Shown: positions 43,286 through 57,251 of the stretch, piece by piece | Layout of the letters: every line of letters starts with the position of its first letter | Numbering within the stretch: the first letter of the stretch is position 1 | DNA from: Bacteroidales bacterium | Lineage (GTDB): Bacteria > Bacteroidota > Bacteroidia > Bacteroidales > UBA12077 | NCBI GenBank assembly: GCA_016342685.1 | Contig: JAEINU010000001.1 | Location: 496,001-560,000 of the forward strand | Reading direction: 5' to 3' | Length of the DNA stretch: 64,000 nt | The notes under the pieces: model-generated | The model's database searches: none | What the model was told of the DNA's origin: nothing | Seen by the model: the letters and a program-made list of their open reading frames with translations, nothing else | Program-made: the position numbers and the translations under genes

Positions 43286-44641
43286 TTAATTTATTTTCCC
43301 TGATTCACTTAAAAGAGACCATCCAAATAACCAATTTTCTCCATTAGGATTAACTGCGCCTTTATAAGTCACTGTTTCGAACCATTCTTCTGGATATAGT
43401 GCTAAATTGCTTTCGACATCTCCAGTTGGAGTTATATTGTAATTGTTTTCGGTAATAATAATTCCCGGATTGTAGGTCTCGTTTTCAGCGCTAAATAAAT
43501 AATTTTGCAACACTATTTGTTGCGCAGATAATGGCTCGCCGGCTTCGTTATACGCAGAAAGGATTAGAGAATTATTATTTCCTTCGATCTTATAAAAAAT
43601 ATTATTTCCTAAGATTAGATTCTCGTTTTCAAATTGAGAATAACTGTTGTTAGAACCATTCGTATATTCAATTTCAGTTCCACCTAGCTGGTTTGTAAAT
43701 ATTGAGTTGTAGTATTTACCTGCTCCATTGTCAGAAAAAACCATTAGGTTTGAAGATGTTAGTTGCCCATTTCCAATATACGTAGCATTATATATTTCAG
43801 GTATTGAAAAAGGTTCTCCATATACAGGATCGGTTCCTCCATCGTGTTCTGCTAAATTATCTCCTAAAGAGGGAGCCTGAATAGCAAGCCAAAATTGACC
43901 TTTGCCATTATATCCTTCGTCGAAATCAAAAGCATCATCGCCACAAAATGCCGACGCTAAATACTTGCAATTTACAGAACCTCCAAAAAATTCAAAACCA
44001 TCATCTTCATTCGAAATTACCTCAACATATTCAATAGTTGTCCCAGATCCAACGCCACCCAAGGTTAGTCCATTTATTTCGTTTCCTTCGCCAATATTTG
44101 TGCCCCCATGGCGAATAGAAACGTATTTTAACACACCTGAGTTATCGTTATTTACAGATCCTCCATAAATTCCTCGCGACTCTGATAATGGAATTCCTTC
44201 AATTTTTGATTCGTTAAACTCACTGTTTAATTGAGCGTTTCCTAATATAATTAATCCACCCCACAAGCCACGAGCTTCAACAGGAATTGATCCTTTAAGA
44301 TCATCACCTTCAACGGTAAATATGATAGGCTCATCGGCTGTTCCTTCGGCAATAATTTTGGCGCCTCGGGAAACAATTAAAGCACTCGCATTTTCTCCTT
44401 GGCCTGTTTTTGCACGAATAACTGTACCGGCTTCAATGGTTAAAGTTTGTCCAGGATTAACAAAAACAAATCCCTCTAAAAGGTATTCTTCACCTTTTTC
44501 CCATGTTGTTGTTCCCGTTCCGCTACCATCGTCTGATACGGAGGTGTATATTTCTACTACCATATCGCTTTTTCTGCATGAGAATGATAAAACCATCAAG
44601 AGAATTAGTAAAATGGAGATGTTTAATTTATTTGAAATCAT
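43286..44641 (-). CDS. Repeat-rich surface lipoprotein, beta-helix-like (copy A)
   Basis: 451-residue lipoprotein; signal peptide with lipobox LSFSC, so Cys22 is the likely lipid site. The body has glycine-rich repeating units (GLWGGLIILGNAQLN, YVSIRHGGTNIGEGNEINGLTLGG, VISNEDDGFEFFGG) that look like a right-handed parallel beta-helix. Its paralogue at 51364 shares all these blocks. The family has no known function to me. It begins 11 bases after the stop of the porin gene upstream, so they form an operon downstream of a Pho-box-like site. Confidence 0.78.
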   Translation of the reverse strand: MISNKLNISILLILLMVLSFSCRKSDMVVEIYTSVSDDGSGTGTTTWEKGEEYLLEGFVFVNPGQTLTIEAGTVIRAKTGQGENASALIVSRGAKIIAEGTADEPIIFTVEGDDLKGSIPVEARGLWGGLIILGNAQLNSEFNESKIEGIPLSESRGIYGGSVNNDNSGVLKYVSIRHGGTNIGEGNEINGLTLGGVGSGTTIEYVEVISNEDDGFEFFGGSVNCKYLASAFCGDDAFDFDEGYNGKGQFWLAIQAPSLGDNLAEHDGGTDPVYGEPFSIPEIYNATYIGNGQLTSSNLMVFSDNGAGKYYNSIFTNQLGGTEIEYTNGSNNSYSQFENENLILGNNIFYKIEGNNNSLILSAYNEAGEPLSAQQIVLQNYLFSAENETYNPGIIITENNYNITPTGDVESNLALYPEEWFETVTYKGAVNPNGENWLFGWSLLSESGKIN

Positions 44642-44652
44642 GATAAATAATT

Positions 44653-45669
44653 TTAGAATTTAAACTCAAGATTTAAATAAAAATAGGACTCATTGTCCAG
44701 ATTTTTGGCAGATGGATACCAGTCTTGGTAATTTGCTGCAATTTTAATCTTCTTATGCGGACTGTATTGAATACCTCCTATAATCGCACTGCCATCTTTA
44801 TTAAGATTCCAGCTATTTTCTTCGCCTTTTAATTTATTTGACCATAATTTGTCGTATCGTCCAAAAAGTTCCCATTTTTCATTTAAATTATACGATGCAT
44901 AAGTCGATATTCCATAAATATTTTGGTCTGCCTTATACTTATTATTCATCTGATAATTGTACTCTACTCCAATTTTACCGAGTTTCTTTAACTGATATCC
45001 TAAAAATGCAACTAGGGAGGTTTGTATTTCGTCTTGTTCGGTATAATCAGCATAAAAACGGGCAGTTAGATTTTTTATAGGTTTTAAAGTTAAACCTAAA
45101 CCAGTTTTGTAGGCATTATCGCTTTGAAGCTGATTGTAACCTTCACCATTCATTACAGTTAGATCTGCAGAAATAAAATCATTAAACTTATAAGCTAAGG
45201 ATGCTCCCAAATCGGCACTACTCCCAAATTTATGTTCATCCTGAAGCGATTTATAAACGTATCGATGACCCCAGAATTTTTCTTGTACTTTAAATTGATA
45301 TAAATCGATTAAACCAAAACGTAAGGATAAATTATCCTTAGTGTAAATTAATTCAGCATTTTTAAAATAAGCATATCGCTTTAATATATCATACTGAGAG
45401 TCTTGGTTTGGACTCCCAATATCTAATTTTAGATTTACTGTAAACTCTGAAGAAAGATTATATTCATATCCAAAATAGGCTCTGTCTACTGCAAACGCAG
45501 ATTCCTGTTTGTCGGAGAATAATTGGTAATGGAAATTGCTAAATACTTTTCCGTAAGCTTTACCCGATGGTTTAAATATTTCTTCTTTCTGATTTTGAGA
45601 AAATGCATTGTTAGAGAAAAACAACACATATGCAATAAATACTAGAAGAATTTGCCGATTTGTCTTCAT
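44653..45669 (-). CDS. Phosphate-selective porin-like outer-membrane protein (OprO/OprP family)
   Basis: 338-residue protein with signal peptide (cleavage near AFSQ) and alternating beta-strand pattern across its length, ending in LEFKF as outer-membrane barrels do. FAVDRAYFGYEY and RYAYFKNAELIY recall the OprO/OprP porins. These are anion channels often induced by phosphate shortage. The intergenic region upstream contains the TTAA-rich direct repeat at 45730. Anion selectivity is inferred from family only. Confidence 0.75.
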   Translation of the reverse strand: MKTNRQILLVFIAYVLFFSNNAFSQNQKEEIFKPSGKAYGKVFSNFHYQLFSDKQESAFAVDRAYFGYEYNLSSEFTVNLKLDIGSPNQDSQYDILKRYAYFKNAELIYTKDNLSLRFGLIDLYQFKVQEKFWGHRYVYKSLQDEHKFGSSADLGASLAYKFNDFISADLTVMNGEGYNQLQSDNAYKTGLGLTLKPIKNLTARFYADYTEQDEIQTSLVAFLGYQLKKLGKIGVEYNYQMNNKYKADQNIYGISTYASYNLNEKWELFGRYDKLWSNKLKGEENSWNLNKDGSAIIGGIQYSPHKKIKIAANYQDWYPSAKNLDNESYFYLNLEFKF

Positions 45670-45729
45670 CTTTTTATTGTTATTAGAAATTATTTACGCC
45701 TGCAATATTACATAGAATTAATATAGCTA

Positions 45730-45747
45730 ATATTAAGTTAATGTTAA
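45730..45747 (-). promoter_or_regulatory. Candidate Pho box upstream of the porin gene
   Basis: Minus strand TTAACATTAACTTAATAT: two TTAA-type hexamers with 11-base period. It lies about 60-80 bases upstream of the porin start and 19 bases upstream of TAATATTG (45703-45710), close to the Bacteroidota -7 consensus TAnnTTTG. Seventeen of 18 bases match the site at 56128. Confidence 0.55.
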
Positions 45748-45796
45748 ATTAACGGAATGATTATTCTGAGATAATATATAAATCATATTGCAAACT

Positions 45797-45804
45797 TACA
45801 TTTG
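45797..45804 (+). promoter_or_regulatory. Candidate -7 promoter element for the small secreted protein
   Basis: TACATTTG fits the Bacteroidota -7 consensus TAnnTTTG and lies about 38 bases before the ATG at 45843. No good -33 TTTG is visible. Confidence 0.4.
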
Positions 45805-45842
45805 TATTGTAATTAATTAGCAAATAAAAAAAACAATATAAA

Positions 45843-46199
45843 ATGAAAAAAGTAGCAATATTACTCGTAAGTTTCTTATTCTTCTCAGTAAGTTTTGTAA
45901 ATGCAACAAACGAAGAAACAGCAACAGTAGAAAATGCTGTGATGACAACTTCAATTTCTGGTAAAGTATTCGATAAAATTACCGGAGAAGCTTTGGCTGG
46001 TGTTAAATTAACAGTTGCTGGTTCAGAAAAAAGTGTTTATTCTGATTTCGATGGAAATTTTGAAATTGATGGTGTTCAGCAAGGAAATTTAGAATTAGCT
46101 GCATCTTACATTTCTTATAAGAATAAAGTAGAATTAATTAACATCGATTTGTCGAAATCCAATACAGTAAATATAAAAATTGAGAGTATTTCGGAGTAA
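45843..46199 (+). CDS. Small secreted protein with a stand-alone carboxypeptidase-regulatory-like domain
   Basis: 118 residues: signal peptide (cleavage after SFVNA), a short linker, and one beta-sandwich domain (about residues 38-105) of the kind found at the N-terminus of TonB-dependent receptors. Its SISGKVFDKITGEALAGV and DFDGNFEIDGV match the same segments in the receptor at 48489. There is no plug or barrel. It may bind a partner in the periplasm; function unknown. A terminator follows, so it is a single-gene unit. Confidence 0.8.
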   Translation: MKKVAILLVSFLFFSVSFVNATNEETATVENAVMTTSISGKVFDKITGEALAGVKLTVAGSEKSVYSDFDGNFEIDGVQQGNLELAASYISYKNKVELINIDLSKSNTVNIKIESISE

Positions 46200-46220
46200 A
46201 TTAATATTTGAAATAATTAG

Positions 46221-46250
46221 GAGTCCGTACAATTTGTGCGGACTCTTTTG
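46221..46250 (+). terminator. Terminator after the small secreted protein gene
   Basis: GAGTCCGTAC pairs with GTGCGGACTC over a 5-base loop, followed by TTTTGC. Strong stem, short T-run. Confidence 0.82.
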
Positions 46251-46305
46251 CGTCTATAAACTTTACTTTGAACTCGTATTTCATTAACTTACCAAAAACA
46301 ATCAA

Positions 46306-47004
46306 ATGGAAAAGTCAAATCATATAATAAAGATTCTTGCAGAGAATAGAGATTTTTTCTCTCGTATTGTAGATGTTGAGTTCAGCGATAAGAATGTTTT
46401 TGTTTTTGATTTCTCAGAAAACAATAAAGCGCTTTTTGAAATTGATTTGGATGATACAAATGTATTAAACAATTATGTTTTTAAAACGCTCGAAAAAGAG
46501 AAAAAAGAAGTGGGTGTTGGAGGATATTTCGAAGATCGTCTAATTTACAAACGGAGCAAGCATTTCGATAATGATGGAGAGCCGCGCAGTATTCACTTAG
46601 GAATTGATATTTGGTTGAAAGCTGGTGAGCCAATATATTCACCTTTGCCTGGTGTTGTGCACAGCTTTAAAAACAATCAACGTTTTGGTGATTACGGACC
46701 TACTTTAATTCTTGAGCATTTAATAGAAGGGGAAACTTTTTACACTCTTTATGGGCATTTAAGTTTAGAATCTGTTCAAAATAAAACAAAGGGTACTCAA
46801 ATTAGAAGGGGAGATATAATTGCTGAAATTGGTGATAGTAATATAAACGGTGGATGGCCACCTCATATACATTTTCAGGTCATTACCGATATGTTAGGAA
46901 ACGAGGGTGATTTTCCGGGAGTTGCACCACCATCCGCAAAGGAATACTTTCATAAGCTCTGCATTGATCCAAATTTAATTTTAAAAGTAAATAAGCTTAA
47001 ATAA
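46306..47004 (+). CDS. M23-type metallopeptidase-like domain protein without signal peptide
   Basis: 232 residues. The C-terminal two thirds is an M23/LytM-like domain: His97 and Asp101 in HLGID, YGHLS, and HIHFQV provide the zinc-ligand pattern. The N-terminal 65 residues are a small beta domain. No signal peptide or membrane helix is seen, so it may be cytoplasmic; the same domain occurs inside large cytoplasmic fusions with kinase and class III aminotransferase domains. Activity on peptidoglycan is thus uncertain. Confidence 0.8.
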   Translation: MEKSNHIIKILAENRDFFSRIVDVEFSDKNVFVFDFSENNKALFEIDLDDTNVLNNYVFKTLEKEKKEVGVGGYFEDRLIYKRSKHFDNDGEPRSIHLGIDIWLKAGEPIYSPLPGVVHSFKNNQRFGDYGPTLILEHLIEGETFYTLYGHLSLESVQNKTKGTQIRRGDIIAEIGDSNINGGWPPHIHFQVITDMLGNEGDFPGVAPPSAKEYFHKLCIDPNLILKVNKLK

Positions 47005-47143
47005 AAACGAGACTGTTTCAACGATAAGTTTTAACAGAAACACTTCGACAGGCTCAGTGTGACAAATTGATGAGCAAATTACTGTCATCTTGAGCCTGTC
47101 GAAAGATTTATGAATTAAAAACTTTTGAAACAGTCTCGTTTTT
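47003..47143. repeat. Long hairpin with an embedded dispersed palindrome (copy 2)
   Basis: Perfect 19-bp outer arms (47003-47021 and 47125-47143, core ACGAGACTGTTTCAA) with T-run ends look like a bidirectional terminator. Inside them at 47040-47105 sits the palindrome CTTCGACAGGCTCAGTGTGACA and its complement, the same element as at 33651. Short AAGTTTTAA/TTAAAAACTT arms lie in between. Confidence 0.85.
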
Positions 47144-47158
47144 TAGATTATAGAAAGG

Positions 47159-47629
47159 TTATTTATCCGTATAGACTTTTTCATTAATTAAGTTTCCTGA
47201 ATCGCTATACATTTTCCATACACCAGACTTTTCACCTTTTTTATATTCCATTTCGTATCGTAAAGTCCCGTTCTCGTCCCAAATAAACCACTTACCGTGT
47301 TTCTTGCCCATATTGTAGTTTGCCTCTGCAAGTTTCACCTCTAAATCGTTCCAGGTAATCCATGTCCCGTGCATTTTACCTTTTTTATACGAGCGTTGTT
47401 CATTTTTAATCCCATTTTCGAAATAGATATTGGTAATTCCATTCTGGATGCCATCTTCTAAATTCATTTCAACACGAATATTTCCATTTTCAAAATATTC
47501 ATTATAAACGCCTGAATAAGGAATCTCCTTTTCATCTAAATAAATACCCTTTTCGTTTTGTTTAATTTGAGCAAATGAATTTATTGTAAATACAAGTAGT
47601 ATTGCTGATAATATAGTTATATGTTTCAT
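47159..47629 (-). CDS. Secreted MORN-2 repeat protein (YwqK-like)
   Basis: 156 residues: signal peptide (to about residue 20, INSFAQ), then about five repeats of the type YxNGxxxxExxxxxGxxxG (for example YFENGNIRVEMN, WDENGTLRYEME). These are MORN-2/YwqK repeats, often labelled antitoxin in databases, but no toxin is here and the protein is exported. Role unknown. It follows the LRR lipoprotein gene by 71 bases. Confidence 0.82.
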   Translation of the reverse strand: MKHITILSAILLVFTINSFAQIKQNEKGIYLDEKEIPYSGVYNEYFENGNIRVEMNLEDGIQNGITNIYFENGIKNEQRSYKKGKMHGTWITWNDLEVKLAEANYNMGKKHGKWFIWDENGTLRYEMEYKKGEKSGVWKMYSDSGNLINEKVYTDK

Positions 47630-47700
47630 AGTTGTATTGTTTTAAAATTCTAAATATAAGGTGTTTATTACAATGCAATAAATTTAGAATGATGTTCTTT

Positions 47701-48486
47701 TTAATATCTGATTGTTGTATTTGGTAAAAGTTTTTTTAATGTAATCTCAATATAATTTTGTGTGAAAATATTTCCCTCAAGTTCCAATTTTTCCAGTTGC
47801 GTTAATTCAGCAATCTCTTCGGGTAAAATACTTAATTGATTATGCGATAGATCTAATTTTCGTAGATTTTTTAATCCTCTAATATCAATTGGGATGTTTT
47901 TTATCTGATTATTAGATAATACTAAAACTTTTAATTGATCTAATAAAAACAAATTCATATTTAAACTGTTTAACGAATCCTTCTTTAATTTAAGCTCTTC
48001 CAATTTTGATAAATTATGAATGTCATTGGGAATTTGGACTAATGAATTATTTGAAAGATCTAATCGTTTAAGATTTTTTAATTTGAATATTTCTTTTGGC
48101 CAATGTATGAATAGGTTTTCCGAAAGATATAAACTTTGCAGAGCGTCCAACTTCATAATATTAGAAGGAAGCGTTGTGAGTTTATTTCTCGTTAATTCTA
48201 AGCTATTTAAGTTTATAAGCTTATTTATTTTTGCTGGCAAAGAAACATATCCCTGATTAAAAAGCACTAGTTTATAAACATCATTGGAGTTTTTAAATGC
48301 CTCATCAATAGATTCATATCTTTTAGCAATACGTAGTTCTTCAAAAGAAAGCAATTTTCGGGAATCGGCACCCGAAAATTGCTTGGTAGCCTGATTATTG
48401 TCCTTACAAGCAATTCCCAAAAGTAAAATTGCAGAAAGAATTACAAACGAGCAGACTATTTTTATATATGATTTATGATTTGTCAT
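47701..48486 (-). CDS. Leucine-rich-repeat lipoprotein
   Basis: 261 residues. Signal peptide with lipobox LLGIAC (lipid Cys about residue 27), then about seven leucine-rich repeats of 23 residues (LKNLKRLDLSNNSLVQIPND pattern) to the C-terminus. Probably a surface or periplasmic protein-binding scaffold. Its start is two bases from the stop of the TonB-dependent receptor gene, so they are co-transcribed and may act together. Confidence 0.88.
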   Translation of the reverse strand: MTNHKSYIKIVCSFVILSAILLLGIACKDNNQATKQFSGADSRKLLSFEELRIAKRYESIDEAFKNSNDVYKLVLFNQGYVSLPAKINKLINLNSLELTRNKLTTLPSNIMKLDALQSLYLSENLFIHWPKEIFKLKNLKRLDLSNNSLVQIPNDIHNLSKLEELKLKKDSLNSLNMNLFLLDQLKVLVLSNNQIKNIPIDIRGLKNLRKLDLSHNQLSILPEEIAELTQLEKLELEGNIFTQNYIEITLKKLLPNTTIRY

Positions 48487-48488
48487 GA

Positions 48489-51284
48489 TTATTTGATTAA
48501 GTATTTAAGCGATACACCAAAATTACGACCTCTACTATATTTTGTATAATATTCATCACCAGAATCAAAATGATGTGTAATAGCATAATCAGAATCGAGT
48601 ATGTTTTTTACTGAAAGTTCAATGTTGAATTTCTTACCAATGCCTTTCGAGATGTTAAAATTTAATGATGGTTGTGGTTGTTCGTAACCATAAGGTGTTC
48701 CTTTTTGGGTAATTAATACAAGTTTTTCGCCAGATACATTGTAACCAATATTGGTGTTTATTTTCGATTTTTCGTGATTGTAATTTAAATACACATTTAC
48801 AATATAAGGAGCTTGGCCTTGCATTGGACGAGTATCTTTACCATCGGGAGAAATTTCACCTTCAGGAATTTTATAAACTGATTTGATATATGTAAAGTTA
48901 CCACCTAAAGTAAAATCTTTAAGCATTGCTAAAAAGTCCAGTTTTTTTCTAAATTCTAACTCAGCGCCATACAAGGTAATTTCATCAGAGTTCTGAGACT
49001 TAAACTCGCGATTGTTAACTTCTACCGACAACTTCTTTTCAATCGGATTGGTAAAGTATTTATAAAATCCACTAACGGCAATTTTTTCACCCTGAGAGAA
49101 GAAATATTCCCATCTTAAATCAATATTGTCAATACTGGTTCTTTTTAAGTCAGGGTTGCCTTCTACACGCTCACTTGTTTTATAATCGTAATATGCTGGC
49201 CCTATTTCCTTAAAAGTAGGACGTGCAATGGTTTTTGAATATGCCATTCGTAGATTCATATTATCTACTAATGTGTAAGTTAAATTTAAAGAAGGAAGCA
49301 CATCAAAGTAATTTGAAGTTGTACTTACTCTTAAATTATTTCCCTCTGGTGACTTATTTTCGGTATGCAATTCACTAGATTCAACTCTGGCTCCCGTAAC
49401 AATTCTAAATTTGTTTGTAATAGGAAGATCAATCATAGCATAACCAGCAGCAACAGATAAATATGCATCTTGACCATAGCTAAGATTTGTAAAGTGATCT
49501 GTAGTATAAAAGTACCCATCTAAATTATCAGCACTTATAATTTCGTTCGCCAAATAATCATTGATATTATCGTTTGGTAAGTAAGTTTTATAACTAGAAA
49601 CATCAAATTTAATGTCATCTAAGTCTCTCGATTTATAATCGTAACTGCTACCAATTTTTACTTTAGCTGACTTTGAGAATAAGTCAACTGGAATTTCAAG
49701 ATCAATTTTATTACTAAAATTAATTTCATTCATATTCCTGAAATACCTCGCAGGTTTATCGTTGGTTTTAGTTCTGTAATTAATGGTGTCGCCATTTTCA
49801 ATATCATAAAGATTTTCGAAGAAACGTAAGTCAGGTTCGTCCTGATTCATGTTTGTGTATGAACTTTGCCATTTTAGGGTACTGTTGTTTAATATAGGAA
49901 GCACATGTTTTCCATGTAATTGAAAATTGTCAAATTTTCGCTCAACATAAGCTAAGATTCTGTCTTGATCGTAGCTGTTTTCGTAACTAAAAAAGCCATC
50001 TCTGTATCTGGCCTGACTTTTACCACTTTGATTGTGGAAATATCTAAAACCGACTTTATTGTTGTTATTTAATTTATAACTAAAGTTAGCCAGTGCTGCT
50101 ATCTTATTATTTTTTTCTCCTTTAGTATCATTCAATTTCCTTTTTGGAGCATTGGTAGCATCTTCATATTCAGCAAATATTCCATCATCATAAAATTCGT
50201 ACGACATTTCGTAACTTAAAGCTAGGTTATAGCCTAATGGTTTGCCTAGGAAACTAACCTGATCGCCAACAGAAATCTTTTCACTATTGTTTAAAAATGA
50301 TTTCTCTTTTATTGGCTCCATTTGAGTAGAAAACGATTTTGTTAAATTGTTTAACTCCGTTTCGCTATAGTATACTTGATTAATCTGATTGTAATCATTT
50401 TGAACCATTCGAGTTAGTTCCGATTTCATCGAAGAAGGAATTGCTCTTGTTCCATCGTCTAAACCTAGCCAGTCGGTACTTCCACCTTCATAAGTAAGAA
50501 AGTCTTCGTTTAAGTTTGCTTGTGGATTGTAAGAGAACGATGTTGAAAATTGGAATGTAAATTTTTCTGGAAAATCTTTTGTAATAATATCTACTTGACC
50601 TCCGGTCGATTCTCCCGGCATATCTGGTGTGAAGGTTTTATTTACAACAATATTCTCGATTATATTGCTTGGAAAAATATCAAGTTGAACCGTATTTTTC
50701 TCTGGATCTAAGGCGGGAACTTCTGCTCCGTTGAATGTAACCTTAGTATATCGTTCGCTTAATCCGCGCACAAAAACATATTTACCATCCTGCACCGAAA
50801 CTCCGGTAACGCGTTTTAATGCTTGTGCCGCATTGCTATCACCTAATTTAGAAATTTGTTCTGCCGATATACCATCCATTACCTTAGGCGCTTTTTTCTG
50901 CATAACCTGCAAAGCATTTTCGGTTTTTTGAGCTGATTTAGCCGTTACAACAACAGCTTCAATGTCAAGTGTAGCTTCACCTAACGATACGTTTTGTATT
51001 GTTACTTCATTACTTTTAATGTTAATATCAGAGATAGTTGTTTTTTCGTAAGATATATATGAAAAAGAAATCTCATGTACTCCAACAGGAAGTGTTAAAC
51101 TATAATTTCCATCAAAGTCGGTAGAAACACCAATAGTTGTGCCTGGTAAAACAACGGTAGCTCCAATTAGTGTTTCTCTTGTATTTTTATCAAATACTTG
51201 TCCCTTTAAAATACCTGTTTGCGAGAATATCTGATTGGAAAATATTAAAATAACGCCGATTATTAAAATTATTTTTCTGCTCAT
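48489..51284 (-). CDS. TonB-dependent outer-membrane receptor with RGLSERY plug
   Basis: 931-residue receptor: signal peptide (to FSQ), a carboxypeptidase-regulatory-like domain (about 22-105), a plug with FVRGLSERYTKVTFNGAEVP and FPSNIIENIVVNKTFTPDMP, and a large barrel ending in LKYLIK. It belongs to the non-SusC class with the RGLGERY motif. It follows the beta-helix-like lipoprotein gene in the same direction and precedes the LRR lipoprotein. I infer that the lipoproteins are its surface or periplasmic partners in a phosphate-related uptake role; the substrate is unknown. Confidence 0.87.
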   Translation of the reverse strand: MSRKIILIIGVILIFSNQIFSQTGILKGQVFDKNTRETLIGATVVLPGTTIGVSTDFDGNYSLTLPVGVHEISFSYISYEKTTISDINIKSNEVTIQNVSLGEATLDIEAVVVTAKSAQKTENALQVMQKKAPKVMDGISAEQISKLGDSNAAQALKRVTGVSVQDGKYVFVRGLSERYTKVTFNGAEVPALDPEKNTVQLDIFPSNIIENIVVNKTFTPDMPGESTGGQVDIITKDFPEKFTFQFSTSFSYNPQANLNEDFLTYEGGSTDWLGLDDGTRAIPSSMKSELTRMVQNDYNQINQVYYSETELNNLTKSFSTQMEPIKEKSFLNNSEKISVGDQVSFLGKPLGYNLALSYEMSYEFYDDGIFAEYEDATNAPKRKLNDTKGEKNNKIAALANFSYKLNNNNKVGFRYFHNQSGKSQARYRDGFFSYENSYDQDRILAYVERKFDNFQLHGKHVLPILNNSTLKWQSSYTNMNQDEPDLRFFENLYDIENGDTINYRTKTNDKPARYFRNMNEINFSNKIDLEIPVDLFSKSAKVKIGSSYDYKSRDLDDIKFDVSSYKTYLPNDNINDYLANEIISADNLDGYFYTTDHFTNLSYGQDAYLSVAAGYAMIDLPITNKFRIVTGARVESSELHTENKSPEGNNLRVSTTSNYFDVLPSLNLTYTLVDNMNLRMAYSKTIARPTFKEIGPAYYDYKTSERVEGNPDLKRTSIDNIDLRWEYFFSQGEKIAVSGFYKYFTNPIEKKLSVEVNNREFKSQNSDEITLYGAELEFRKKLDFLAMLKDFTLGGNFTYIKSVYKIPEGEISPDGKDTRPMQGQAPYIVNVYLNYNHEKSKINTNIGYNVSGEKLVLITQKGTPYGYEQPQPSLNFNISKGIGKKFNIELSVKNILDSDYAITHHFDSGDEYYTKYSRGRNFGVSLKYLIK

Positions 51285-51311
51285 TTGAATTTTATTATTT
51301 CTAATTAAAGA

Positions 51312-51338
51312 GACTGGCAGTACAAATAACCGCCAGTC
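51312..51338 (-). terminator. Intercistronic hairpin between lipoprotein B and receptor genes
   Basis: GACTGGC pairs with GCCAGTC around a 12-13 base loop. There is no proper T-run on the minus strand, so it may be an attenuator or stability element giving different levels of the two proteins. Confidence 0.5.
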
Positions 51339-51363
51339 TTGTAATGTATTTAATCCCTAAAAT

Positions 51364-52779
51364 TTATTTTGTTGACCCAAAAGTCAAAGACCATCCTGCA
51401 GCCCAGTTGCTTCCAGCAGGTTCAAATGCACCTTGATAAGTTACACTTTCGAACCAAGAATCAGTAGCTACAACGCCAGATCCAGCTTCGCCAGATGCAG
51501 GAATTAATAAATGATCACCATCATTAAATCCAACAGTAGCTAAATCAGAAATAGCATTGTTATTTGTATTAAAATGCGCTAATAAATCTGTTGCAGTAGA
51601 AGCAGGAGCAGTTCCTTTTTCTTCCGATACTTTTAATGCTGCATCGGCAGTTGCATTAGCAACAGAATTGAATAAGTTGTTCTTAAGAATTAAGTTGTTG
51701 TCTGTAACCATCTGATCAAGGCTATTGTGCTTGTCTTCACGATATTCAACATCGATGCCTTTAGCTTGAGAAGCAAAGATTGAGTTTGCGTAAGTTCCAC
51801 CAGCATTGTCGCGGAAGGTAATTACTCTACCATTACCATTGCCAATATAAGTAGCATTGTAAATCATTGGTTTTGCATAAGGCTCAGCGGTTTCATCGTT
51901 GCCGTCTCCACCATCATGTTCACCTAAACGGTCGCCGGAATTTTCACCTTGAATAGTCACCCAAAATTGACCTTTACCGTGAAATCCTTCATCGTAATCG
52001 TAAGAATCATCACCACAATAAGCAACTAAGATATTTTTTAGGTTTGGTGAACCACCAAAGAATTCAACACCATCATCAACGTTTGAAACAACTTCGATGT
52101 ATTCGATTGTAGTTCCACTACCAACGCCACCTAAAGTTAAACCATTGATTTCGTTACCAGCTCCAATATCTGTACCTCCATGACGGATAGACACATATTT
52201 TAATGAACCAGAGTTGTCTGCATCATTACTTCCACCATAATAAGCAGCATATTGCTCAGGAACGCCTTCAATTCTTTTTTGAATAGTGTTGTTAGTTGTC
52301 GCTTTTCCTAATATAATTATACCACCCCATAAGCCTTGCACTTGAGTCATATAACCAGTTCCATTGTAAGTGTCGCCTAATCCTGTAAAAACAATTGGAA
52401 GAGCCGCAGTGCCTTCAGCCATTAATTTCCCACCTTGTTTTACTATTAATGCACTAGCATTTTCTGCTTGTCCGGGTTTACCTTGAACCATTGTTCCTGG
52501 TTCAATTGTTAAAGTTTGTCCGTTTTCAACAAAAACAAATCCATCAAGAATCCAAGTAGTATCAGCCGAAAGAGTTTTAGTTCCAGTTCCTTCGCCTTTA
52601 TCATTAATAGTAACAGTTTTTTCGTCTTCGTCGATTGTATAAATAGTTGTTCCAATAGAGTAGATAGTTTGATTTTCTCCTGGGATTGGATCATCTTTTT
52701 CGTCATCGCTACAAGATGAAAATCCGATTGTTAAAGCTGCGAATAGAGCTACTGTTACTTTTAAATAATTTTTTTTCAT
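51364..52779 (-). CDS. Repeat-rich surface lipoprotein, beta-helix-like (copy B)
   Basis: 471-residue lipoprotein with signal peptide and lipobox FSSC, then an acidic linker (DDEKDD). The repeat body shares blocks with copy A (43286): WILDGFVFVENGQTLTIEPG, GQAENASALIV, GLWGGIIILG, YVSIRHGGTDIGAGNEI. Copy A is paired with a porin; this one is followed by a TonB-dependent receptor, so both seem to work with an outer-membrane transporter. The upstream region shared with the response regulator has Pho-box-like repeats. Confidence 0.8.
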   Translation of the reverse strand: MKKNYLKVTVALFAALTIGFSSCSDDEKDDPIPGENQTIYSIGTTIYTIDEDEKTVTINDKGEGTGTKTLSADTTWILDGFVFVENGQTLTIEPGTMVQGKPGQAENASALIVKQGGKLMAEGTAALPIVFTGLGDTYNGTGYMTQVQGLWGGIIILGKATTNNTIQKRIEGVPEQYAAYYGGSNDADNSGSLKYVSIRHGGTDIGAGNEINGLTLGGVGSGTTIEYIEVVSNVDDGVEFFGGSPNLKNILVAYCGDDSYDYDEGFHGKGQFWVTIQGENSGDRLGEHDGGDGNDETAEPYAKPMIYNATYIGNGNGRVITFRDNAGGTYANSIFASQAKGIDVEYREDKHNSLDQMVTDNNLILKNNLFNSVANATADAALKVSEEKGTAPASTATDLLAHFNTNNNAISDLATVGFNDGDHLLIPASGEAGSGVVATDSWFESVTYQGAFEPAGSNWAAGWSLTFGSTK

Positions 52780-52882
52780 TGCAATCTTTTGTTTTAGTTT
52801 ATTAAAGTTTTTAATTGTTTATTTTTTATAAAAATTTATACTGCAAAGAAAGTTTGACTTGTGTTAAAACTTATTATCAGTA

Positions 52883-52901
52883 GTTTAACCTTTCGTTAAA
52901 T
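52883..52901 (-). promoter_or_regulatory. Second Pho-box-like repeat, facing lipoprotein B
   Basis: Minus strand reads TTAACG, five bases, TTAAAC: two TTAA hexamers with 11-base period, about 105-120 bases upstream of the lipoprotein start. Match to the consensus is weaker than for the other three sites. Confidence 0.4.
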
Positions 52902-52922
52902 AACCCGACATAATTTTTTTTA

Positions 52923-52940
52923 TTAACTTTAACTTAATGT
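52923..52940 (+). promoter_or_regulatory. Candidate Pho box upstream of the response regulator
   Basis: TTAACTTTAACTTAATGT on the plus strand, 16 of 18 bases equal to the site upstream of the porin. It lies 80 bases before the response-regulator ATG and 16 bases before TATTCTTG, a near match to the -7 consensus. Confidence 0.52.
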
Positions 52941-53019
52941 TGATTTAAAAATTAGTTATTCTTGTGTAATTAATATAGTTGTACATTAGCACTTTAAGAA
53001 TCGTTAAAAAAATGTTAAG

Positions 53020-53715
53020 ATGAATACTAAAGATTTTAAAATATTACTTGTTGATGACGAGCCTGATATAATTGAGTTTCTTAGTTATAATATAAATAAG
53101 GAAGGATTTGAGGTTTTTACAGCGCAAAATGGCAAAGAAGCTATTCAAGTTGCAAAAAAGGTTAATCCACATTTAATTTTATTGGATGTTATGATGCCAG
53201 AAATGGATGGTATTGAAACGTGTGAGGTTTTACGACAAGATAAGAATCTTCAAAATACGGTAATTGCATTTTTAACTGCTCGTGGAGAAGATTATTCGCA
53301 AATTGCGGGTTTTGATGCGGGGGGTGATGATTATATTGCAAAGCCTGTTAAGCCTAAGGTGCTTGTTAGTAGAATAAAAGCATTGTTAAAAAGATTTAAA
53401 GTAACTAATGGTGATTCTATCGACGAGAATTTGATAATTAAACAATCAAATTTAATTATAGATAGAGAAAAATATGTTGTTACGAAAGATGAAGAAGAAT
53501 TAGTGCTTCCGAAAAAGGAATTTGAGCTTTTAGTATTATTAATTAATAAGCCAGACAGGGTTTTTACTCGCGACGAAATATTTAGTGCTGTGTGGGGAGA
53601 TAACATTATTGTTGGAGATAGAACAATTGATGTTCATATTAGAAAATTAAGAGAAAAGATTGGAGAAAATCATATTAAAACAATAAAAGGAGTAGGATAC
53701 AAATTTGTAAATTAA
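53020..53715 (+). CDS. OmpR/PhoB-family response regulator
   Basis: 231 residues. Receiver domain with acidic pocket (VDDEPD), phospho-acceptor Asp56 in LLDVMMPEMDG and Lys108; then a winged-helix DNA-binding domain with GDRTIDVHIRKLREKIGE and GVGYKF. No sensor kinase gene adjoins. PhoB-type regulators bind direct repeats with an 11-base period, and such repeats lie upstream of this gene, the porin and the PiT transporter, so I infer a phosphate-starvation role. A strong terminator follows. Confidence 0.9.
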   Translation: MNTKDFKILLVDDEPDIIEFLSYNINKEGFEVFTAQNGKEAIQVAKKVNPHLILLDVMMPEMDGIETCEVLRQDKNLQNTVIAFLTARGEDYSQIAGFDAGGDDYIAKPVKPKVLVSRIKALLKRFKVTNGDSIDENLIIKQSNLIIDREKYVVTKDEEELVLPKKEFELLVLLINKPDRVFTRDEIFSAVWGDNIIVGDRTIDVHIRKLREKIGENHIKTIKGVGYKFVN

Positions 53716-53734
53716 TCTACATACAGATCAAAAT

Positions 53735-53764
53735 AAAAAAGCTCGGAAATTCCGAGCTTTTTTT
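53735..53764. terminator. Bidirectional terminator between response regulator and PiT transporter
   Basis: GCTCGG/CCGAGC stem with a 5-base loop, flanked by six A and seven T, between convergent genes. Works on both strands. Confidence 0.9.
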
Positions 53765-53782
53765 ATGAATTAAATCAGAGGA

Positions 53783-56041
53783 TTATCCTTTGCTTTTTAT
53801 TTGATATTCTACAAAGTCTCTTTGCGACTTCACAAGATTTATCGATTGCAATAAGAAGTTCTTAATTTCATTTAAGATTCCTAGATATAGAATACTATTT
53901 CTAGTTCCAGCTTCTTCTTTCTTAATACGTTTAATTTGATTCTTTCTTCCAGAACCAAGTCTATCGAGAATAATTTGTTGTTTTTCAATTAATTCAGGAA
54001 TATTACTAAATGCATTCTGCTCAATTGTTAAAATAATCGAATCGAATAAGTCGGTTACACTATCTCTAAAATCATTAAGCTCATCAATTTGCATTTGTAA
54101 TAATGGTTTATGATTATTGTCAACATGATCGTAGCTAGGGTTAGATATAAAAGATAGAGCATGTGCCATTTCTCTTAAATAATCAATAACCTGAACGTAA
54201 TAGTGCCCTGTTTCACCATCTTCTTCTTGAAGTTTTAGTAAGGTATTATGTACATTGTTCTTAAGATATTTAGCATCGGTATTTAAATCATCTACCTTTT
54301 TACATACACTCTTTAATGATTTGCGATCTTCATTTGTTAATCCAACAACCGTTTCGTTAAAAATTAGAACAACAGATTTAAGCATGTTTCGAACCTCTAA
54401 AGAACAACGATTCATTATATTTTCATTGCGTAAATCATCATCTGCTAATCTTCTGACTTTCTGTTTTTCATTTTCTTTCTTATGAAAAGAGATATGAGTT
54501 CTTAATACAACAAATAAAGCTAACAATACAAATATTACGATGGCTATAATTCCTCCCCAACTTATAACTAGGGCAATTAGGAATGCAACTGTAAATGCCG
54601 TTATTGCTGTCATAAACCAACCGCCAATAACGGTAACAACACCTGTAATTCTGTATACTGCACTTTCTCGGCCCCAAGCTTTATCGGCAAGAGATGTTCC
54701 CATAGCTACCATAAACGTAACGTAAGTTGTCGATAAAGGAAGTTTCATAGATGTTGCGAACGAAATAAGAATACTTGCTACTGTTAAGTTTACAGATGCT
54801 CTTACCATATCAAAAGATGGTGCATCAGCACGATTCTTAATACTTTCTCTATATTCTGTATCGTCAAAACGGTTACTAATTCCCAATTTCATCGATTTTG
54901 GAGTGATTTTATCAATTGCATTACTAACATCCATAGCACCTCGAACAAGCGTTCTTGATAACATGCTTGATCCAAATCTTTCGCTACCAGCACTCTGGCG
55001 ACTTAGGTTTAACTCAGTTTCAGTAACTTTCCGAGCTTTCTTTGATAACCACAAGGTAATTACCATTACCATTCCAGCAATTAATAACAAGTAAGTATTA
55101 GCTACTGCTTTTCCTGTTAAGGCAACCATTAAGAATCCATCCGGATCGGTACTAGGATCAGCAATAAATGCTTGGAACGATTTTAATCCTGCTAAAGGAA
55201 CACCAATAAAGTTTACCAAATCGTTACCAGCAAAAGCCATTGCTAAAGCAAAAGTTCCAACTAACACAATCATCTTAAGGATGTCTAATCGAATGATCCA
55301 ATATAAAAACTGTAATAAAATTGTCCAACCTATAAAACTATATATTATAATTAAGGTAGAATTACTCTTAATCCAGTCAGTTGTGTCACTTGTTAAAAAC
55401 GACGATCCTTTGGCTCCTTTTATTAGGATAAAATAAGTGATAGCAGTAATTGCAATTCCACCCCAAATAGCACCAAAATATTTAAATGTTTTTTTGTAGT
55501 TGAATGAAAATACTAAACGGGTTAAATACATAACTACCGATCCCACAGTAAATGCGACGACCACCGAAAGCAGAATTCCTGAAATAATTGCTAATGCTTT
55601 TCCTGAGTTAATGTAGGTTCCTAAATCACCTGCACTTTGTCCAAGATGCTTAATTTTAATTAAGGCAACAGCAACAGCCGAACCTAATAATTCAAATACA
55701 ATTGAAACCGTTGTTGAGGTTGGTAATCCAAGTGTGTTAAAAATGTCAAGTAACACAACGTCGGTAAGCATTACCGCGAGGAATATGACCATTATTTCGG
55801 AGAAATAGAACTGATCAGGATGAAAGATTCCTTTTCGGGCAACTTCCATCATTCCACTTGAAAATGTTGTTCCAACCAAAATACCAACACTAGCTATAAT
55901 CATAATTACATAGCGAGGTGCAACTTTAGAACCAATTGCTGAATTTAAAAAGTTTACAGCATCGTTGCTTACTCCAACTATTAGATCGGAAATAGCTAAA
56001 GCAAAAAGTATTACAACAAGAATAATGTAAAAATTTTCCAT
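53783..56041 (-). CDS. PiT-family inorganic phosphate transporter with PhoU-like C-terminal domain
   Basis: 752-residue fusion. Residues 1 to about 535 form a PiT permease with the two inverted signature repeats (GVSNDAVNFLNSAIGS near residue 23 and FAGNDLVNFIGVP near 270) and about 12 membrane helices. The last ~200 residues are a helical PhoU-like domain, which may regulate uptake. Usual PiT proteins are 400-500 residues, so the fusion form is longer, but such forms are common in Bacteroidota. A candidate Pho box lies about 90-105 bases upstream of the start. Confidence 0.92.
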   Translation of the reverse strand: MENFYIILVVILFALAISDLIVGVSNDAVNFLNSAIGSKVAPRYVIMIIASVGILVGTTFSSGMMEVARKGIFHPDQFYFSEIMVIFLAVMLTDVVLLDIFNTLGLPTSTTVSIVFELLGSAVAVALIKIKHLGQSAGDLGTYINSGKALAIISGILLSVVVAFTVGSVVMYLTRLVFSFNYKKTFKYFGAIWGGIAITAITYFILIKGAKGSSFLTSDTTDWIKSNSTLIIIYSFIGWTILLQFLYWIIRLDILKMIVLVGTFALAMAFAGNDLVNFIGVPLAGLKSFQAFIADPSTDPDGFLMVALTGKAVANTYLLLIAGMVMVITLWLSKKARKVTETELNLSRQSAGSERFGSSMLSRTLVRGAMDVSNAIDKITPKSMKLGISNRFDDTEYRESIKNRADAPSFDMVRASVNLTVASILISFATSMKLPLSTTYVTFMVAMGTSLADKAWGRESAVYRITGVVTVIGGWFMTAITAFTVAFLIALVISWGGIIAIVIFVLLALFVVLRTHISFHKKENEKQKVRRLADDDLRNENIMNRCSLEVRNMLKSVVLIFNETVVGLTNEDRKSLKSVCKKVDDLNTDAKYLKNNVHNTLLKLQEEDGETGHYYVQVIDYLREMAHALSFISNPSYDHVDNNHKPLLQMQIDELNDFRDSVTDLFDSIILTIEQNAFSNIPELIEKQQIILDRLGSGRKNQIKRIKKEEAGTRNSILYLGILNEIKNFLLQSINLVKSQRDFVEYQIKSKG

Positions 56042-56127
56042 TTTTTAAGTTAATTTAAATTTATGGTAAAAATAGCTATACAAATCATAGGTAAAATCTA
56101 GTTTGTGATTATCATTTTATTAAATCA

Positions 56128-56145
56128 ATGTTAAGTTAATGTTAA
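56128..56145 (-). promoter_or_regulatory. Candidate Pho box upstream of the PiT transporter
   Basis: Minus strand TTAACATTAACTTAACAT: exact TTAACA, five bases, TTAACA repeats, as in the Bacillus PhoP consensus. One base differs from the porin site. Confidence 0.55.
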
Positions 56146-56220: not shown

Positions 56221-56355
56221 ATGTTAAGAATAAAGTATGCGGTTATTTTTGTTTTCTCATTAATAACAGTATTTTTATGTTATTATTCGATCAAGAGTAA
56301 ATTGAAATATCAAGTGGCTTTATTTGTTTATGAAAAACTACGATGTTGTTATTAA
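56221..56355 (+). CDS. Possible 44-residue membrane peptide before siaB
   Basis: An ATG-initiated frame encoding a single hydrophobic helix (about residues 6-23) and a basic tail (IKSKLKYQ). It overlaps the siaB start by 26 bases. No family is recognised and no good ribosome-binding site is visible. It may be only chance. Confidence 0.2.
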   Translation: MLRIKYAVIFVFSLITVFLCYYSIKSKLKYQVALFVYEKLRCCY

Positions 56356-56845
56356 TCATAAAGGGGCGGTTAGCTTAAGTGTTGTTGATTCTATTTTACA
56401 TCAATTAAAAAGCTATATCAATCATAAGGTGCACGATAAAATTACTCGAAAAAGGATTTATACTCTATCGGTAGAATGCCTAGAGAATATTTTCAGGCAT
56501 GCAGATGTAAATGATGAAAAGAATTCTCTCATTAAAGATTATCCGCCAAGGTTTATTATCGAAAAAATATCTGAAAGTTTCATTATTCATACAGGCAATA
56601 TCTTATTAAATGCGCATATTAGTAATTTGAGTGATAGAATCGAAAAACTAAATTCTTTAGAATTAGAAGGTATTAATTTACTTTATAAGGAGTCTTTATC
56701 AAATGCCGAAATTTCGGAAAAAGGAGGGGCTGGTCTTGGACTTATTGTTATGGCAAAGACTACAGGGCAAAAAATTAGATATGATTTTGAGAAAATTAAT
56801 GATAAGTTTTCTTATTTTGCAATGCAATTAAATTTAAAAAGGTAA
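56330..56845 (+). CDS. siaB: SiaB-family protein kinase
   Basis: 171-residue GHKL-type ATPase/kinase with ECLENIFRHAD (N-box equivalent) and GGAGLGLIVMAK (G-box). SiaB phosphorylates SiaC in Pseudomonas, controlling binding to a diguanylate cyclase (SiaD). SiaC is encoded seven bases downstream. I chose ATG 56330 over TTG 56324. No SiaA phosphatase or SiaD cyclase is in the window, so the output partner is elsewhere or different. Confidence 0.87.
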   Translation: MKNYDVVINHKGAVSLSVVDSILHQLKSYINHKVHDKITRKRIYTLSVECLENIFRHADVNDEKNSLIKDYPPRFIIEKISESFIIHTGNILLNAHISNLSDRIEKLNSLELEGINLLYKESLSNAEISEKGGAGLGLIVMAKTTGQKIRYDFEKINDKFSYFAMQLNLKR

Positions 56846-56852
56846 GTTCAAA

Positions 56853-57251
56853 ATGAATGTAATAAATATAGCTGCTACTGAAAAATCGCCAAGGGTAATC
56901 TTAAACTCTGATAGTAATGTTTTTGAAATGCAGGGAAATTCAAGACCTGAAAATGTACGAGATTTTTTTTACCCAATAATTGATGATTTAAAAAAGTATT
57001 TTGAGAGTTTAAATATTACAGAATATAAGGAGAAAGCTATAAAGTTTAATTTCAAATTAGATTATTTTAACTCATCATCGGCTAAATTTATTTCGGATAT
57101 CTTGGTTATTGTCCAAACATTTGCGAAAAAAGGATTTGATATTAAAATATATTGGTATTTTGACGATGGCGATGAGGATATGAAAGAAGTAGGTGAGGAT
57201 TTTCAAGAAATGATTTCATATCCATTTAACTTCATAATGGTACAGAGATAA
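56853..57251 (+). CDS. siaC: SiaC-family regulatory phosphoprotein (DUF1987)
   Basis: 132-residue STAS-like fold protein. The segment YFNSSSAKFISDIL (Ser74-Ser76) corresponds to the phosphorylation site of SiaC, where Pseudomonas has Thr68; here only serines are available. It forms a kinase-substrate pair with the preceding SiaB. Expected output is control of a diguanylate cyclase or another target. The SDR gene starts eleven bases after it. Confidence 0.87.
   Translation: MNVINIAATEKSPRVILNSDSNVFEMQGNSRPENVRDFFYPIIDDLKKYFESLNITEYKEKAIKFNFKLDYFNSSSAKFISDILVIVQTFAKKGFDIKIYWYFDDGDEDMKEVGEDFQEMISYPFNFIMVQR

Follow-up and report, generated by a model that had tools for sequence, protein, structure and literature searches.

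The PhoP box of Bacillus subtilis consists of TT(A/T)ACA repeats spaced about 5 base pairs (bp). The Pho box of Escherichia coli is formed by two 11-nucleotide direct repeats (PMC4415409). The present analysis concerns Pho-box-like repeats in a 64,000-nucleotide stretch of a Bacteroidales bacterium genome (assembly GCA_016342685.1, contig JAEINU010000001.1, positions 496,001 to 560,000), referred to below as the window. Three intergenic sites in it precede genes for a porin, an OmpR/PhoB-family response regulator starting at 53020 (the 53020 regulator) and a PiT phosphate transporter, and they are read here, with high confidence, as Pho boxes of a phosphate-starvation regulon run by that regulator. 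Head-to-tail repeats with an 11-bp period are common to these sites and to the B. subtilis and E. coli boxes, the third site reading TTAACA-N5-TTAACA; unlike in those species, the window unit is TTAAC(A/T)T, not CTGTCAT, and it is paired with the Bacteroidota -7 element TAnnTTTG.

Within Bacteroidota, DNA affinity purification sequencing (DAP-seq) of Riemerella anatipestifer PhoP yielded a TTTAACA motif and binding to the regulator's own promoter (PMC9603813). The accessible part of that report describes 583 peaks, likens the motif to that of ArcA and focuses on virulence and redox; it gives a 7-base core without an 11-bp repeat definition, a phosphate-gene set or promoter phasing. A PhoP/PhoB-type regulator, the core TTTAACA and a site at the regulator's own promoter are common to Riemerella and the window.

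In Flavobacterium johnsoniae, the receptor, lipoprotein and phoB genes of the phoBR operon are induced by depletion of inorganic phosphate (Pi); a term search of the paper turned up neither a Pho box nor a motif (PMC8115612). The window likewise combines a phoB-type gene with genes for a TonB-dependent receptor and a lipoprotein; unlike in F. johnsoniae, no kinase gene adjoins the regulator, which is flanked by PiT and a BBP2/OmpL-like porin. Bacteroides fragilis PhoB, whose PhoRB kinase and regulator carry the consecutive gene numbers BF1575 and BF1576, is an activator of pst and of a phosphate permease, with binding at the pstC promoter; control of pst by a Bacteroidota PhoB is the common feature, and no box sequence was found in the accessible text (PMC3547664). 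A bioinformatic study of marine bacteria, including flavobacteria, marked putative Pho boxes in their plcP clusters, with no sequence found for them in the part of the source available (PMC4796936).

A literature search, incomplete in coverage, found no definition of an 11-bp repeat or of promoter phasing for Bacteroidota. An earlier, sequence-only reading of the window had called the motif little documented in this phylum, which holds for the 11-bp definition and not for the core TTTAACA, already reported for Riemerella. New in the present analysis are the definition of the 11-bp repeat, its phasing to the promoter and its spread across the phylum.

Repeat arrays at the window locus and in relatives

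The 18-mers named by the sequence-only reading were matched exactly at 45730-45747 (-), 52923-52940 (+) and 56128-56145 (-), the second and third being identical to the first at 16/18 and 17/18 positions. Its description of TTAA(C) direct repeats with an 11-base period was correct, and the sites proved to be longer than the 18 bases reported. Each is part of a 27-bp array, TTAACnTTAAyTTAAynTTnaTTTAA, built of TTAAY units every 11 bp in two interleaved periods, and the head-to-tail arrangement of a Pho box can be read directly. As also claimed, each array lies upstream of its phosphate-related gene (porin, response regulator, PiT), oriented toward it, and the weaker fourth repeat is real. Each array is also placed before the core promoter. 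The arrays are as follows:

45721..45747, minus strand: Pho-box-like array TTAACATTAACTTAATATTAGCTATAT, facing the porin operon
52873..52899, minus strand: weaker fourth repeat TTAACGAAAGGTTAAACTACTGATAAT with 11-bp TTAA repeats, facing the lipoprotein-receptor operon
52923..52949, plus strand: Pho-box-like array TTAACTTTAACTTAATGTTGATTTAAA, facing the response regulator (candidate autoregulation)
56119..56145, minus strand: the genome's strongest site, a Pho-box-like array TTAACATTAACTTAACATTGATTTAAT oriented toward PiT

The porin array also matches on the other strand (45727-45753 +), facing a CarboxypepD_reg gene.

The assembly (4.77 Mb, 54 contigs) was searched whole. The pattern TTAACNTTAACTTAANNT had three exact matches, all at the window locus, and is thus not scattered; one mismatch added a single site elsewhere in the genome, and a simulated 4.77 Mb order-3 genome (sample GC 31.5%) contained no exact match. 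Coincidence in AT-rich DNA must be considered at this point, as TTAA-rich words are common at 31% GC. With up to three mismatches, the 18-mer occurred six times in the window alone against 3.8 expected, an excess that was not significant; the signal therefore resides in the site in its exact and extended form. When up to one mismatch was allowed, a reversed control pattern was commoner in the genome than the motif (15 matches against 4), so the bare pattern with mismatches is weak evidence.

The PiT box was retained about 90 bp ahead of the start codon in genomes of the same genus and of two other families, and the boxes of the response regulator and the porin were likewise kept in relatives. 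In alignments of the upstream regions, no 24-column stretch was better conserved than the box at PiT (14 genomes) and at the regulator (9 genomes), and at the porin (6 genomes) the box lay within the best-conserved stretch.

A profile was trained on 24 sites from relatives only, with the own-genome sites left out. In the own genome, PiT ranked first (expectation value E 1.9e-5) and the regulator second (E 1.2e-3), followed by a site before marC (E 0.08) and by the porin (E 0.14). When a gene class was left out of the profile, the window site of that class still scored above every position in the simulated genome.

Held-out boxes were found by the profile in two genomes of the same genus (G003 and G006), about 71 bp before an operon of porin, pstS, pstC, pstA, pstB, phoU and kinase. 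Its porin is 45-46% identical to the window porin, its PhoR kinase scored 678 bits against a Bacteroides PhoR cut-off of 500, and the best PhoB-type regulator of both genomes is the ortholog of the window regulator. In a genome of another family (G028), boxes preceded pst genes and a distant porin-like gene (26%). Across genus and order, 26 of the 30 matches at E <=0.03, many of which were profile training sites, sit at PiT, response regulator, porin/CarboxypepD, pst or NptA genes.

Promoter phase and spread across Bacteroidota

Offsets were measured from the box start to the -7 element TAnnTTTG. For exact elements downstream of strong boxes, 14/19 lay at 48-49 or 69-71 bp, and 13/19 offsets shared a pair of neighbouring residues modulo 11. 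The binomial tail of 2e-6 for this would apply to independent cases, and orthologs are not independent. In the window, the following elements were found:

45703..45710, minus strand: TAATATTG, the -7-like element of the porin promoter, conserved in the alignment and 37 bp off the box start
45797..45804, plus strand: perfect -7 element TACATTTG of the divergent gene 45843-46199, 70 bp off the plus-strand match at 45727
52844..52851, minus strand: TTTCTTTG, the -7-like element of the lipoprotein-receptor operon, 48 bp off the fourth repeat
52982..52989, plus strand: TACATTAG, the -7-like element of the regulator promoter, 59 bp off the box start
56067..56074, minus strand: TATTTTTA, the -7-like element of the PiT promoter, 71 bp off the box start

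The window elements at 37, 59 and 71 bp have one mismatch each and were picked by alignment conservation. The fourth repeat lies 48 bp from a -7-like TTTG element in 7/8 orthologous intergenic regions with a placeable element, the window included. Judged by these positions, the boxes keep a helical phase to TAnnTTTG, at about 37, 48, 59 or 70 bp. Because of the two-strand match and the TACATTTG element 70 bp away, the box between the porin and the CarboxypepD_reg-like gene 45843-46199 probably serves both, and that gene is probably controlled by it as well.

The same geometry bears on the direction of control. The boxes could be bound by the regulator and yet be repressor sites at some promoters, for instance with PiT repressed and the porin induced under starvation; the boxes are judged by promoter position only, and the offsets vary by gene (37, 59, 71). 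Every box, however, lies upstream of its -7 element, an activator-like position, at near-constant phase, and in F. johnsoniae the genes corresponding to the receptor and lipoprotein show strong induction (PMC8115612). Repression at some promoters is accordingly considered improbable, and activation is preferred.

For comparison across the phylum, 80 named regulator orthologs (59-71% identity) were fetched from Plebeiobacterium, Marinifilum, Flavobacterium, Aquimarina, Maribacter and others. Most adjoin a PhoR-like kinase, and in many Flavobacteriaceae a receptor and a lipoprotein gene lie divergently upstream of the regulator. In Flavobacterium akiainvivens, a glycosyltransferase gene adjoins the kinase, as in F. 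johnsoniae (Fjoh_0541; PMC8115612).

In 65 regions upstream of the regulator, which are related by descent so that the pairs are not independent events, 43 pairs of TTAA[CT] at period 11 were counted (33 regions), against 2.6 in shuffles (maximum 7); periods 10 and 12 gave 2 pairs and 0 pairs. Many of the period-11 pairs face the receptor operon. Profile matches of at least 16 bits numbered 26 in the 80 loci against 0-1 in simulated sequence, and they include sites before NptA and before a TonB-dependent receptor.

Coincidence in AT-rich DNA is refuted by these tests taken together: the exact sites are unique to the locus and exceed all simulated positions, they are the best-conserved upstream stretches, and both the specificity for period 11 and the helical phase are maintained. 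The probability left to it is negligible.

Regulator, partner genes and further sites

The genes at the window locus are as follows:

43286..44641, minus strand: lipoprotein behind the porin, of the same family as the 51364-52779 lipoprotein (48% identical)
44653..45669, minus strand: porin, a predicted 16-stranded barrel, 46% identical to the porin that opens the G003 pst operon
45843..46199, plus strand: small CarboxypepD_reg-like exported protein, divergent from the porin
48489..51284, minus strand: TonB-dependent receptor with a CarboxypepD_reg domain, of the same domain make-up as the Pi-induced Fjoh_0545
51364..52779, minus strand: outer-membrane lipoprotein, 31% identical to the same-position lipoprotein in F. 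akiainvivens
53020..53715, plus strand: response regulator of the OmpR/PhoB family, orthologous to the one in Flavobacterium phoBR-type loci
53783..56041, minus strand: PiT (PHO4) phosphate transporter with a C-terminal PhoU-like domain

PiT scored 91 bits for PF01384 against a cut-off of 33.7. The porin model, of moderate confidence, has 16 strands, as expected of an OprP-type barrel, and its fold matches are many 16-strand porins, OprP included; phosphate selectivity through an arginine ladder is a candidate property suggested by the pst-operon context of its homologs only. A SiaB/SiaC-like kinase-phosphoprotein pair (56324-57251) lies divergent from PiT, with synteny kept across the genus.

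The 53020 regulator contains the receiver (PF00072) and Trans_reg_C (PF00486) domains and is the best PhoB match of its genome, which, together with retention of the boxes upstream of PiT, regulator and porin orthologs, supports the Pho-box reading. It lies beside the receptor and lipoprotein genes, as in a Flavobacterium-type PhoBR locus, and by synteny it matches Flavobacterium PhoB. The three sites are very probably its binding sites.

Several observations weigh against this assignment. The regulator falls below the curated PhoB equivalog cut-offs (NF053854 and TIGR02154; 217.3 against 270 and 207.2 against 296.2 bits). Since the ortholog in a Flavobacterium phoBR-type locus also fails both, these models do not cover the clade. 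No kinase adjoins the regulator in the window, in contrast to the Flavobacterium-type arrangement. The own PstSCAB-like operon on contig C23, which was expected to carry a box, has none. Finally, given the 583 sites and the broader role of Riemerella PhoP, an orthologous regulator need not be phosphate-specific everywhere.

ArcA binds GTTAA direct repeats that also have an 11-bp period. The repeats could be operators of a different OmpR-family regulator or signal, such as an ArcA-like redox system, with the phosphate genes forming part of a broad regulon. The genome encodes several further OmpR-family regulators, all with a lower PhoB score, and in the accessible part of the Riemerella report the motif was matched to E. 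coli ArcA and PhoP had its 583 sites (PMC9603813). The concentration of matches at phosphate genes (26/30, training sites included) speaks against such a system, as do the held-out sites before pst operons and the presence of a box at the regulator itself in roughly half of the upstream regions compared across Bacteroidota. Another regulator is therefore regarded as unlikely, if marginally less so than repression, and control by the 53020 regulator is preferred.

An orphan PhoR-like histidine kinase of 349 residues is encoded beside a large tRNA-synthetase-like gene (G000:C4:36779-37828, L171:6779-7828; G000 is the own genome). It is the ortholog (up to 57% identity) of the kinase adjoining the regulator in other Bacteroidota. 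By this orthology it is most likely the partner of the 53020 regulator, a split two-component pair being the simplest reading. No stand-alone PhoU was found in the own genome, whose PhoU domains other than that of PiT are located in two Na/Pi cotransporter proteins.

The sequence checks proposed with the sequence-only reading came out in favour of the Pho boxes. At pst genes, boxes were found in G003, G006 and G028 and none at the own operon. That operon (G000:C23:28998-33961, L092:8998-13961) also has no PhoU and adjoins an Alginate_exp-type barrel. A high-scoring PstB is absent from several near-complete genomes of the genus. An inverted-repeat element at 47010-47130 of the window contains cttcgacaggctcagtgtga, and a similar repetitive sequence precedes the own Pst-like operon.

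The regulon had also been described as local and self-regulated. The box at the regulator agrees with self-regulation; strict locality does not hold, as a fourth strong box, likely a member of the regulon, is located on another contig (G000:C38:232411-232437, L068:7411-7437 +; 23.6 bits). It precedes a gene for MarC (NAAT family) by 79 bp and has an exact -7 element TAGCTTTG 48 bp downstream. Relatives showed no such box at marC. In G003, G006 and G001, the ortholog of marC comes immediately after a second PstSCAB-like operon, which links MarC to phosphate.

A box near NptA on C4 of the own genome scored weakly and faces a prenyl-synthase gene; it is not claimed. On contig C18 of G006 (L177:6865-11440), a box precedes a TonB-receptor/SusD-type pair, possibly a phosphate-regulated uptake system like the Pus systems of Flavobacterium.

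Proposed mechanism and its meaning

The sequence shows the sites, how they are conserved and spaced, their phase to the promoter and the genes they accompany. We infer that the regulator binds them and activates transcription, that phosphate is the signal and that the kinase is the partner, in the following form. Under low phosphate, the C4 orphan kinase would phosphorylate the 53020 regulator, which would bind head to tail on the 11-bp TTAAC repeats. The bound regulator would activate a TAnnTTTG -7 promoter located on the same face of the helix, 3 to 6 turns further downstream, and would raise phosphate entry at the outer membrane (porin) together with the outer-membrane receptor-lipoprotein system, inner-membrane uptake through PiT, and its own synthesis. 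Feedback might be exerted via the PhoU-like domain fused to PiT.

A wider rule is put forward tentatively. Across Bacteroidota, PhoB-type activators might use TTAAC 11-bp repeats obligatorily at whole helical turns (about 37, 48, 59, 70 bp) from TAnnTTTG, and phosphate signalling in this genus may proceed with no stand-alone PhoU, via PiT with its fused PhoU-like domain and a kinase encoded apart from the regulator.

The arrays would provide a concrete operator sequence and a spacing rule for phosphate control in Bacteroidota. This phylum matters for the turnover of organic phosphorus, and mapping of its transcription factors is poor. The spacing rule would permit prediction, from sequence only, of phosphate-regulated genes such as those for porins, receptors, lipoproteins, MarC and NptA.

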